Origin: Collinsella sp. An2
GTDB lineage: Bacteria > Actinomycetota > Coriobacteriia > Coriobacteriales > Coriobacteriaceae
Assembly (NCBI RefSeq): GCF_002160065.1
Contig: NZ_NFJW01000004.1
Location: 113,256-177,255, forward strand
Direction: 5' to 3'
DNA: 64,000 nucleotides
Shown here: positions 18,595-44,757 of the stretch, one piece after another
Layout of the letters: every line of letters begins with the position of its first letter
Numbering within the stretch: the stretch's first letter is position 1
Notes under the pieces: generated by a model
Database searches by the model: none
The model's input: the letters and a program-made list of their open reading frames with translations, nothing else
What the model was told of the DNA's origin: nothing
Translations under genes and position numbers: made by a program

Positions 18595-18955
18595 TGGTCA
18601 AAGGAGGGTCCTCCTGGGCAAGGCGGGTCTGCAAGGTGTGAGCCGATGGTCAAAGTTGCCGCCTGCTGGGCATGGAAAGTGCGTCGGGGGAGTCTCGGTG
18701 GTCAATTCGTGCGCGTGCTGGGCAACAACCTGCGTTTTTTTCGCATGTTGCTGCTCATCAAGCGGCGCGTGCATACCCAGGAGAGGACCATATCGACCGG
18801 TAGTGCGCCTTCAGCGAGAAACGCGTGCCCAGAGCGCGGAATTTATGACCAGCCGCATCCCCGTCCGGGGATGCTCGTGCCCAGAGCGCAGTCAAAGTGA
18901 CCAGGTGTAGGTGCCCGGCGAAATACCCCTGCCCAGGGGAAGCTACATTTGACCA
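18595..18955. repeat. Family 1 bidirectional 52-bp-period array, copy A
   Basis: Forward units TGGTCAA-N12-CTGGGCA start at 18595, 18647 and 18699. Inverted units TGCCCAG-N12-TTGACCA (with small variations) start at 18774 (degenerate), 18826, 18878 and 18930. Every within-block step is exactly 52 bp. The internal gap is always 12 and the inter-unit gap 26, and the gap sequences are not conserved. The middle step from last forward to first inverted unit is 75 bp. Short ORFs drawn across this region in the track carry no recognisable domain. Confidence 0.9.
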
Positions 18956-29649: not shown

Positions 29650-29992
29650 CGGATTGCTCGCGATGAACGAGGCTTGAGGCGGGAAAGCGGCCGTGCTCGC
29701 CTATGCGAGGTGCCCGACGTAGCGCATCGATGCGCTTGCAAGCCACTGGGCTCCGTTGCACCGCGAGGCCCAACACGTCGCAAGGTCGCTCACAGCAGCT
29801 CAATCGTGTCGCCTCGGCGTACATGCCGGGGCGATTTTGTGTGCACACAGATTCTTCTCAGTGTATGAGCCGCTTTCCGCGTACACTTCCACCGAGCCGA
29901 AAGGCTAGTTAGGTATTGGGTTGGAAGACCCGGAGTTTTGGCGCGGAGGTTCGCGCCCACGACAAGCGCTGGAAAGCGCAGGAGGAAATTGC
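29650..29992 (+). other. Long leader region before the RGG-protein gene
   Basis: There is no gene in these 343 bases. A hairpin, GGCGCG-GAGGTT-CGCGCC (about 29940-29957), lies 35 bp before the start, followed by GGAGGAAAT as RBS. The long 5' leader could hold post-transcriptional control, for example autoregulation by the RNA-binding tail of the encoded protein. That is conjecture. Confidence 0.35.
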
Positions 29993-31036
29993 ATGACTGA
30001 GTTCGGCAAGGTTGAAGAGATGGACAACGAGATGGACGAGACGATGGCCGAGGCTGCTGCGATCGCAGGTGCAGCCGAGCTTGACGACGAGCAGGTCGCC
30101 GCGGAGGATGCGGACGACGCGGTCGTCGAGGATGAGAAGGCCGACGACGTCGAGGAGACCGCTGAGGTCGCTTCCGACGAGGAGAAGGCTGACGAGAAGG
30201 ACGAGGAGAAGGCCGTTGCGCCCGAGGACCTGGATGACCAGCTCTTCGACAAGCTGAACCGTGCTGCCCGCCTCATGCGCGCCCGTCGCGACGTGCTCGC
30301 CGAGCAGGCCGCTGAGGAGGCAGAGCGCCTGAACACCCTGAAGCGCGCCCTCAAGCTGCTCGAGCTCAAGCCCAAGATGGAGGAGAAGGAGATGGCTGAC
30401 CTCATGGGCATGCGTCTCCGTGAGCTCAACGAGATCCTCATCAAGGCCGAGAAGGAAGATATCGTCGCTCGTGTCGAGCCCGAGGACAACGACATGCGTC
30501 ACGTGGTGGTCTTTGCCAGCGAGGACGCTATGGAGCTGGCCGAGGCTCAGGGCAAGAAGCGCAAGAAGTACATTCCGCAGCTCTCTGCTGAGTCCGCTGA
30601 GCAGCTGCTCTCCCTGCTTGATCAGGTGATCGACCCGCTGACCGCTATGGGCCTGGATCGTCCGACCGAGAAGCGCGACGAGCGTGGTGGCCGTGGCGAT
30701 CGTGGTGGCTTCGGCGGACGCGGCGGCGACCGCGGTGGCCGTGGCGGCTTCGGCGATCGTGACCGCGGCGGTCGTGGCGGTTTCGGTGGCCACGGCGATC
30801 GTGGCGGCCGCGGCGGCTTTGGTGGCCGCGGTGGTGACCGTGGTGGCCGTGGCGATCGTGGTGGCTTCGGCGGACGCGGCGGCGACCGCGGTGGCCGTGG
30901 CGGCTTCGGCGATCGTGACCGCGGTGGTCGCGGTGGCTTTGGCGACCGTGGCGGACGCGGTGGTTACGGCGGTCACAACGACCGCGGTGGCCGTGGCGGC
31001 TTTGGTGACCGCGGTGGCCGTGGTGGTCGCTACTAA
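29993..31036 (+). CDS. Acidic / winged-helix / RGG-repeat protein, likely nucleic-acid binding
   Basis: 347 residues from ATG at 29993 behind GGAGGAAAT. The track start 72 bp upstream lacks an RBS. Three parts are visible. First is a very acidic N-terminal region (about 1-80, Glu/Asp/Ala). Second is a MarR-like winged helix (about 85-225: LKRALKLLELKPKMEEKEMADLMGM, then a wing with DMRHVVVFASEDAMELA). Third is a C-terminal tail of about 115 residues built from RGG, GDRGGRGG and FGGRGG repeats. RGG tails bind RNA and drive condensation in other proteins; a role in RNA or transcription control is inference. Confidence 0.85.
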   Translation: MTEFGKVEEMDNEMDETMAEAAAIAGAAELDDEQVAAEDADDAVVEDEKADDVEETAEVASDEEKADEKDEEKAVAPEDLDDQLFDKLNRAARLMRARRDVLAEQAAEEAERLNTLKRALKLLELKPKMEEKEMADLMGMRLRELNEILIKAEKEDIVARVEPEDNDMRHVVVFASEDAMELAEAQGKKRKKYIPQLSAESAEQLLSLLDQVIDPLTAMGLDRPTEKRDERGGRGDRGGFGGRGGDRGGRGGFGDRDRGGRGGFGGHGDRGGRGGFGGRGGDRGGRGDRGGFGGRGGDRGGRGGFGDRDRGGRGGFGDRGGRGGYGGHNDRGGRGGFGDRGGRGGRY

Positions 31037-42754: not shown

Positions 42755-42784
42755 GTGCTCGCAGACGTATCGTCTGCCGCTTCA

Positions 42785-42816
42785 GGGGCTCCACAGAAAT
42801 GTGGGGCCCCTTTTTT
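42785..42816 (+). terminator. Rho-independent terminator of rplJL
   Basis: GGGGCTCCACA and TGTGGGGCCCC pair around GAAA with one mismatch and are followed by TTTTTT. Confidence 0.85.
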
Positions 42817-42829
42817 CATATGAGTTGAA

Positions 42830-42911
42830 TTTGGCGACCGAGAGGCGAGGGACTTTGGCGACCGAGAGGCGAGGGACCTTAGCGGCCGAGAGCTTTTGGT
42901 GACCGAGAGGC
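42830..42911. repeat. 24-bp tandem repeat downstream of rplL
   Basis: Two identical 24-bp units (starting TTTGGCGACCGAGAGGCGAG at 42830 and 42854) are followed by two degenerate ones (to 42911). A weaker unit, CTTTGGCCGCCGAGGGG, is near 43141. The stretch 42912-43238 holds no gene I can support. Confidence 0.8.
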
Positions 42912-43238: not shown

Positions 43239-43547
43239 TGGTCAAGAACGTTGCCCGCTGGGCAGGATACTCGCGCTACCAGCGTGTCGCTGGTCAATCT
43301 TCTCCTCCGCTGGGTACGGCATGTGCGCGACGGTGCCGTCGTTGGTCAAAAGCCTCGTCCGCTGGGCATCAAGCCGTCGGGTGAAGAGATCCTGTTGGTC
43401 AATTTGAGTGACCCCTGGGCAAAAGAGGCTCGTTATAGGCGAGCGAGGCGCGCGCTTACGTCTTGTAGTTGCCCAGGCGAGCATGCAATTGACCACCTAG
43501 GGGCTGTGGCGGCGCAATCGTTGCCCAGCGCTCACCATAATTGACCA
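43239..43547. repeat. Family 1 bidirectional 52-bp-period array, copy B
   Basis: Forward units TGGTCAA-N12-CTGGGCA start at 43239, 43291, 43343 and 43396 (the second reads CTGGGTA). Inverted units TGCCCAG-N12-TTGACCA start at 43470 and 43522. Steps are 52, 52, 53, then 74 across the centre, then 52. The N12 and 26-bp gaps differ between units and from copy A at 18595. It lies between rplL and galU. Confidence 0.92.
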
Positions 43548-43851
43548 ACGAGGGGACGCGTCGCTTAGGGGCGCGTCGCCTCGGTCACCTGCTCGCATAT
43601 GGCTATCTGTTCGTATGTAGCCACCGGCTTGCATATGGCCACCGGCTTGCATGCATCCATCCGCTCGCCTGCAAAAACAAGCCGGCCACAGACGCTAGGG
43701 CTGCAGCACCTTGTGATTTGCTTGAGATTTTTTCCTATTGGTGTGTATCGCGGTACTATTGCTTGCGTATTGCGTACCTATGTCTTCCGACACGCGAACG
43801 TCGGGGGGCACACATTTGCGCCGTTTTCCTTGGCGCCCGAAAGGAACCTCA

Positions 43852-44757
43852 ATGAAGGCCATCATCCCCGCCGCAGGCCTCGGGACCCGCTTCCTGCCGT
43901 CGACGAAGTGCACGCCCAAAGAGATGCTGCCGGTGCTCGACAAGCCGGTCATTCAGTACGTGGTGGAGGAGGCGCTCGAACCCGAAGAGGTCGATGACGT
44001 CATTATCGTCACGTCGCCGGGTAAGCCCGAGCTCCTCAATTACTTCCAGCCCGACCGCTCGCTTGAGAGCCTGCTGCGCGACCGCGGCAAGGGTGCCTAC
44101 GCCGATGCCGTGGCTGCCGTAGGGTCGCTTCCGGTGGACTTCCGTTATCAGTATGAGCCCAAGGGCCTTGGACATGCGATTCGCTCGGCAGCCGATGCGT
44201 GCGCCGGCGAGAGCTTCCTGGTGCTTCTGGGCGACTACGTGGTTCCGGCGCGCGACATCTGCACGAAGATGCTCGAGGTCTCGCGTGCGCACGGCGGCGC
44301 CTCGGTAATCGCCGTTGCTCCGTGCGCTCCCGACGAGGTCAGCCGTTACGGCGTCGTCGCGGGCGAGCGTGCAGGTTCGCTTCCCGGCTCCGAGGACGTG
44401 GCCGATGACGAGCCCGGTGCCGTGTGGCGCGTTTCGGGCCTCGTGGAGAAGCCTGCGCCCGAGGAGGCTCCGTCCAACCTGTACATCGTGGGCCGCTACC
44501 TGCTGTCGGCACACGTCATGGAGCTCCTTGAGGACCAGGAGCCCGGCGCGGGCGGCGAGATCCAGCTCACCGACGCCATGGCTCGCTCGCTCGACCGCGA
44601 GAACATGTATGCCGTGGTCATCGACCCGCTTTCCGGCTACGATACGGGCACCCCGTCCGGTTGGATGGCGACGAACGCCCTCATGGCTTCCGAGGACCCG
44701 CGTTTCCGCGACGCCTTCTGGGAGGCCATCGACGAACGCGGTGGCCTTAAGCGCTAG
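43852..44757 (+). CDS. galU: UTP-glucose-1-phosphate uridylyltransferase
   Basis: 301 residues from ATG at 43852, preceded by GAAAGGAAC. The track start 114 bp upstream lacks an RBS. The nucleotidyltransferase motif IIPAAGLGTRFLPSTKCTPKEMLPVLDKP is intact, along with EPKGLGHAI, LLGDYVV, GLVEKPAPEEAPSN and the sugar-site YDTGTPSGW. It makes UDP-glucose for galactose metabolism and envelope glycans. Its place between rplL and rpoB is unusual and is discussed in the findings. Confidence 0.95.
   Translation: MKAIIPAAGLGTRFLPSTKCTPKEMLPVLDKPVIQYVVEEALEPEEVDDVIIVTSPGKPELLNYFQPDRSLESLLRDRGKGAYADAVAAVGSLPVDFRYQYEPKGLGHAIRSAADACAGESFLVLLGDYVVPARDICTKMLEVSRAHGGASVIAVAPCAPDEVSRYGVVAGERAGSLPGSEDVADDEPGAVWRVSGLVEKPAPEEAPSNLYIVGRYLLSAHVMELLEDQEPGAGGEIQLTDAMARSLDRENMYAVVIDPLSGYDTGTPSGWMATNALMASEDPRFRDAFWEAIDERGGLKR

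Follow-up and report, generated by a model that had tools for sequence, protein, structure and literature searches.

The intergenic region between rplL and galU in the window (the whole analysed stretch of DNA, 64 kb in length) carries a short unit repeated at steps of about 52 bp, first in forward and then in inverted orientation. A second set of such units, array A, lies elsewhere in the same window. What kind of element are these facing arrays, and which protein, if any, could recognize them?

Facing arrays in the window and in the genome

Array B, located between rplL and galU, is built from a 26-bp unit, TGGTCAA-N13-TGGGCA. The unit pattern search placed four forward units on the plus strand: F1 (TGGTCAAGAACGTTGCCCGCTGGGCA, 43239..43264), F2 (43291..43316), F3 (43343..43368) and F4 (43396..43421), with steps of 52, 52 and 53 bp. 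A 48-bp centre (43422..43469), whose text differs among arrays, is followed on the minus strand by the inverted units R1 (43470..43495), 74 bp from F4, and R2 (43522..43547), after a further step of 52 bp. The unit numbers, steps and coordinates given in the preliminary description are thus exact. Array A (18595-18955) consists of a forward arm at 18595..18724 (plus strand; units at 18595, 18647 and 18699), a 49-bp centre at 18725..18773, and an inverted arm at 18774..18955 (minus strand) with four units at 18774, 18826, 18878 and 18930, the first of which is decayed and has 3 mismatches.

The pattern TGGTCAA-N8-16-TGGG has 10 matches in the window, four in array A and six in array B, and none outside the arrays. 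The expectation for the same window is 0.16 matches according to dinucleotide shuffles, and 0 of 100 shuffles reached 10. A scan of the window that uses no motif and tries ten lags between 40 and 73 gave its top two signals at arrays A and B, both with a lag of 52.

To the left of array B lies rplL (ribosomal protein L7/L12; 42344..42754, plus strand). Its identity is deduced from its position after rplJ (L10; 41745-42266) and from the fact that it is kept beside galU in relatives. It is followed by a terminator-like hairpin with a T tract (42784..42811, plus strand), and a comparable hairpin is found 3' of rplL in Enorma phocaeensis. Since rplL has this hairpin of its own approximately 430 bp ahead of array B, the array is not needed as its terminator. 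The galU gene on the right (43738..44757, plus strand) is given as the open reading frame from the first possible start; its homologues begin near 43852. Other repeats also occur in the window: about five 18-bp repeats of the CACCTGCTCGCATATGGC type at 43586-43675, immediately right of array B; a 24-bp tandem repeat (2.6 copies) at 42830-42892, in the stretch that separates the rplL terminator from array B; and a Gly/Arg-codon-rich tandem repeat with periods of 156 bp and 39 bp at 30674-31028, inside the reading frame 29921-31036.

The two arrays had been proposed to belong to a genome-wide family, and pattern searches together with relaxed unit searches indeed revealed 15 arrays in the 2.54-Mb genome (G000), all of them intergenic. 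Each comprises a forward arm of 1-5 units, a centre, and then an inverted arm of 2-5 units. The 52-bp step, on which the preliminary description had staked its interpretation, is kept at other arrays: the steps within arms are 51-53 bp, plus one of 63 and one of 106. The distance from the last forward start to the first inverted start is 74 or 75 bp, and the centre is 48 or 49 bp long in 15 of 15 arrays, with no conserved text across them. Nearly all of the 67 exact-pattern unit matches in the genome fall within the 15 arrays. The unit consensus, TGGTCAA-N12-CTGGGCA, resembles a direct repeat and is not palindromic; information content is highest at positions 1-7 (TGGTCAA) and 20-26 (CTGGGCA) and lesser at positions 14-18 and 34-36.

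Related arrays in other genomes and their helical phase

Related arrays occur in five further Coriobacteriaceae genomes (G065, G054, G055, G034 and G058), so that three genera are represented in all; both the box text and the steps differ. When the strict pattern was run against the GTDB set, with each species represented by one genome, only E. phocaeensis matched; G000 is therefore Enorma-like. The two-unit 52-bp pattern, applied to 400 genomes of the class, gave a clear signal only in G000, G065, G054 and G055. G054 and G055, which belong to the second genus, have TGGTCAC-N11-TATGGGY as their unit, and a further weak box, the third, is located around positions 34-40. Several arrays of these two genomes (L085, L086, L089, L091 and L097) contain a long terminator-like hairpin inside the centre. 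The unit of G034 (third genus) is TTGGTCAAATYRCCCYGYGACTGGG, present at no fewer than ten loci, and that of G058 is TGGACG-N11-TATGGA, with a 42-bp step. The arrays of G034 and G058 surfaced in de novo scanning around genes of a protein superfamily designated X (see below); arrays of quite different text located away from X loci in other genomes would escape detection by these searches. The third Enorma species, G066, has no arrays in 357 kb according to the motif-free scan, where approximately 2-3 would be expected, a result that is not decisive alone; pattern searches of G066 found none either.

The spacing of the units follows a rule that went unseen in the preliminary description. Across all genomes the arm steps are 41/42, 50-53, 63, 73/74, 83/84, 95 and 106 bp, plus a few from weak hits. 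The centres of G054 and G055 measure 54, 65, 75, 85, 117, 138/139, 178, 190 and 201 bp, some of these values spanning undetected units. In a free scan of periods from 6 to 20 bp, the distinct step and centre values were best fitted by 10.45 bp, and 0 of 5000 random sets fitted as well. The helical repeat of B-DNA is 10.45 bp. Steps and centres are thus multiples of whole turns, which keeps the sites on one face of the helix.

A protein clade that tracks the arrays

The preliminary description also did not see that one clade of proteins tracks the arrays. Each of the six array genomes encodes one such protein, X-A, of approximately 340 aa, and in 6 of 6 genomes its gene and an array are 99-450 bp apart. 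In G000, the gene for the 340-aa protein (G000:C34:28297-29316, outside the window) sits between two arrays (region G000:C34:27489-29830); it is bracketed on both sides in this genome only. The closest relatives of this protein are those of G065, G055 and G054, each adjoining an array. An X-A profile run over 399 genomes of the order scored 517-606 bits in the six array genomes and 338 bits in the next one, the former scores being inflated because the profile was built from these same six proteins. A tree separates the array-linked proteins from 26 close paralogues that have no arrays. The array trait requires 2 changes on this tree, including one distant case, and 0 of 500 shuffles gave a number as low. 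Among X loci, a de novo array score of at least 3 was obtained only at X-A genes and at one distant X gene (in G064), and it was reached at 0 of 87 control pieces; the G055 array is under this threshold and was detected by unit search.

The distant locus in G064 (L183:1787-2107, G064:C63) has its own facing array, GCGAGTTCTGAGTCC, with 31-bp steps, i.e., three turns. It was found at that locus only; we regard it as real but solitary and therefore do not count it as dispersed. X relatives in three further genomes also have repeats next to them: G061 (L176, lag near 53 bp), G043 (L178, near 42 bp) and G002 (L182, near 46 bp). We do not claim these repeats as arrays, as they have no clear facing arm.

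The X-A protein of G000 has no match in Pfam or NCBIfam. No X-A protein matches a transposase in Pfam, NCBIfam or PADLOC, or a recognized DNA-binding domain in Pfam. The X-A C-terminus weakly resembles the MTES_1575/DUF559 nuclease folds. A weak match to PF18741 (Vsr-like REase_MTES_1575) was found in 18 of 22 X members and a match to DUF559 in 7 of 22, and a C-terminal D...ExK/Q...H...D.RR motif is shared with these families by most X members. Where proteins were checked singly, the scores are under the curated cut-offs: six of eight proteins reached 12-26 bits with PF18741 (cut-off 38.2), and the DUF559 (PF04480) score was 19.7 (cut-off 20.6). We also did not find repeat arrays described for either family. 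Residues D241, E252, Y253, G255 and R270 are invariant in the 22 X proteins; the lysine of the ExK motif is present in the proteins of G000, G065, G054 and G055, whereas G034 and G058 have Q at this position.

The X superfamily as a whole has members in 247 of the 399 Coriobacteriales genomes searched, often several per genome. Many of its members have no arrays, so the adjacency of arrays to X-A genes could reflect autoregulation alone.

Turnover of the arrays and their possible role

Four orthologous array pairs (25 units) of the sister species G054 and G055 were compared. Identity is 97% and 99% in the two boxes and 88% in the block at positions 13-18, versus 66% for spacer positions 25-33 and 62% for positions 41-52. 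What is conserved is therefore boxes and geometry, as had been suggested from the two window arrays, and not the gaps; simple duplication, for which alignable gaps would have spoken, is unsupported. In positions 27-52, spacer identity is approximately 0.30 between arrays, which is background, and approximately 0.36 between neighbouring units of one arm. Arrays A and B thus did not arise by recent duplication, in agreement with the preliminary description. Its further suggestion, growth and loss of units, receives weak support. Neighbouring spacers are slightly more alike, as local duplication would give, and the orthologous arrays L038 and L105 of G000 and E. phocaeensis share a locus and an adjoining conserved tRNA but have 4 and 3 inverted units, respectively, and unalignable spacers.

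Few array loci are common to these two genomes. Between rplL and galU, E. phocaeensis retains a single forward unit, which is degenerate, and an inverted unit that has collapsed. G066 and G054 have no units there, and the intergenic gaps are approximately 358 and 318 bp, versus 1098 bp in G000; the G000 gap exceeds that of array-free relatives by about 740 bp.

The most probable explanation, to which we assign a probability of roughly 0.6, is that each array serves as a DNA target of X-A, offering it several sites on one face of the helix in two arms. The protein would recognize the bipartite, direct-repeat-like unit, that is, two TGG boxes approximately 20 bp apart. Several X-A molecules would line up cooperatively along each arm on one face of the helix, and the facing arms would give rise to a dyad-symmetric nucleoprotein complex able to cover distances of 4 to 10 turns from one neighbour to the next while phase is kept. 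The array adjoining the X-A gene would serve autoregulation. The other 10-15 arrays, mostly behind the 3' ends of genes, would be fixed chromosomal sites of bridging, looping or insulation; a putative architectural role is the most likely one for them. The arrays, their helical phasing, the conservation confined to boxes and the one-to-one pairing with X-A are observations, from which binding by X-A, its cooperativity and the architectural role are inferred. As a more specific and tentative version, X-A may be a sequence-specific, nuclease-derived protein from a large Coriobacteriales family that synapses or bridges the arrays, acting either as a lineage-specific chromosome organizer or as part of a self-propagating nuclease-array module.

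A less likely alternative is a selfish repeat module similar to REP-RAYT, in which X-A would act as a nuclease or recombinase and the arrays would be non-autonomous copies that it spreads or maintains. The paucity of loci shared with E. phocaeensis and the retention of the catalytic-looking D and ExK/ExQ positions would fit such a module. So would the surroundings of X-A in G000: the two bracketing arrays are 83% alike, and the last 70 bp or so of a DUF6020 gene recur (93%) after the second of them (L041:4381-7010, G000:C34), which points to local duplication around X-A. Barring this pair, however, the arrays are unlike copies of each other. Neither their centres nor their flanks are conserved, the information content of the flanks is low, and words shared between array flanks are no more frequent than in random pairings, i.e., there is no sign of target-site duplication. 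We rejected a transposon or MITE for lack of target-site duplication and conserved ends. Searches of phages and viral contigs yielded no X-A relatives, and the plasmid set gave weak matches only, on two Collinsella records. The scan of viral contigs found four two-copy coincidences and no arrays. A phage origin is rejected on these grounds.

Somewhat less probable still are ordinary operator clusters, with X-A or another regulator as a transcription factor and each array controlling the adjacent promoter. Operators with several sites in helical phase are known, and an array is located upstream of X-A in 5 of 6 genomes. By heuristic gene calls, on the other hand, no array overlaps a gene and the arrays occupy 33 co-directional, 12 convergent and 3 divergent gaps, compared with 37, 16 and 13 for other gaps; divergent gaps are under-used (3/48 versus 13/66, p = 0.056). 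The flanking genes (rplL/galU and those for RuvX, LuxS, MraZ, phosphate acetyltransferase, DUF711 and a SpoIIE-type protein) have no common function, and the terminator-like hairpins in some G054 and G055 centres also argue against promoter control. An RNA-level element, i.e., a transcribed inverted repeat whose long hairpin would terminate, pause or stabilize transcripts, is very improbable and we reject it: the window arrays fold only somewhat better than shuffles (z of -1.9 and -3.0), as inverted repeats would, but the facing arms share boxes and not spacers, whole-turn quantization at 10.45 bp is meaningless for RNA, rplL has a separate terminator, and the window has no Rfam match. CRISPR or guide arrays are rejected as well, given the facing arms, the short boxes, and spacers that drift between sister species and are not replaced.

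Among known systems, the nearest logic is that of REP/BIME and RAYT. In the published account (PMC2817692), this system comprises dispersed extragenic repeats and one cognate chromosomal gene flanked by repeats, is lineage-specific, and shows co-variation of repeat text and protein. Our arrays are likewise dispersed, have X-A beside them in 6 of 6 genomes and differ in box text by lineage, but the defining repeat, copy number and protein of REP-RAYT are absent. A REP unit is an imperfect palindrome of 20-40 bp, whereas the array unit is a non-palindromic bipartite site of 24-26 bp; REPs usually exceed 100 copies per genome, compared with 10-15 arrays here; polarized facing arms and whole-turn steps are unlike REP; and RAYT is a Y1/HUH tyrosine transposase, whereas X-A is not and weakly resembles the PD-(D/E)xK fold. 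Should X-A prove to spread its arrays, REP-RAYT-like would be the better classification.

In parS-ParB, matS-MatP and other nucleoid sites, too, one cognate protein is matched to sites dispersed over the chromosome; each of those sites is a single palindrome. The arrays differ in having two facing arms of directional, non-palindromic units in fixed helical phase at each locus, and X proteins have no ParB domain. In iterons and in plasmid centromeres, of which parC is an example, a single protein binds directional repeats that keep register with the helix. They share this register with the arrays, which differ in their inverted second arm, their 15 chromosomal loci and the absence of any replication or partition gene seen nearby. 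A literature search, incomplete in coverage, found no description of such arrays together with such a protein. With the caution that this coverage imposes, the combination of array geometry and protein appears to be categorically new.

If X-A binds the arrays, they would constitute a previously undescribed chromosomal DNA-protein system of gut Coriobacteriaceae. The natural steps of 4 to 10 turns would then let genomes reveal the reach and phase of the complex. The arrays would also offer the first testable role for a protein family that occurs in 247 of the 399 Coriobacteriales genomes and is weakly linked to the uncharacterized DUF559/MTES_1575 group.
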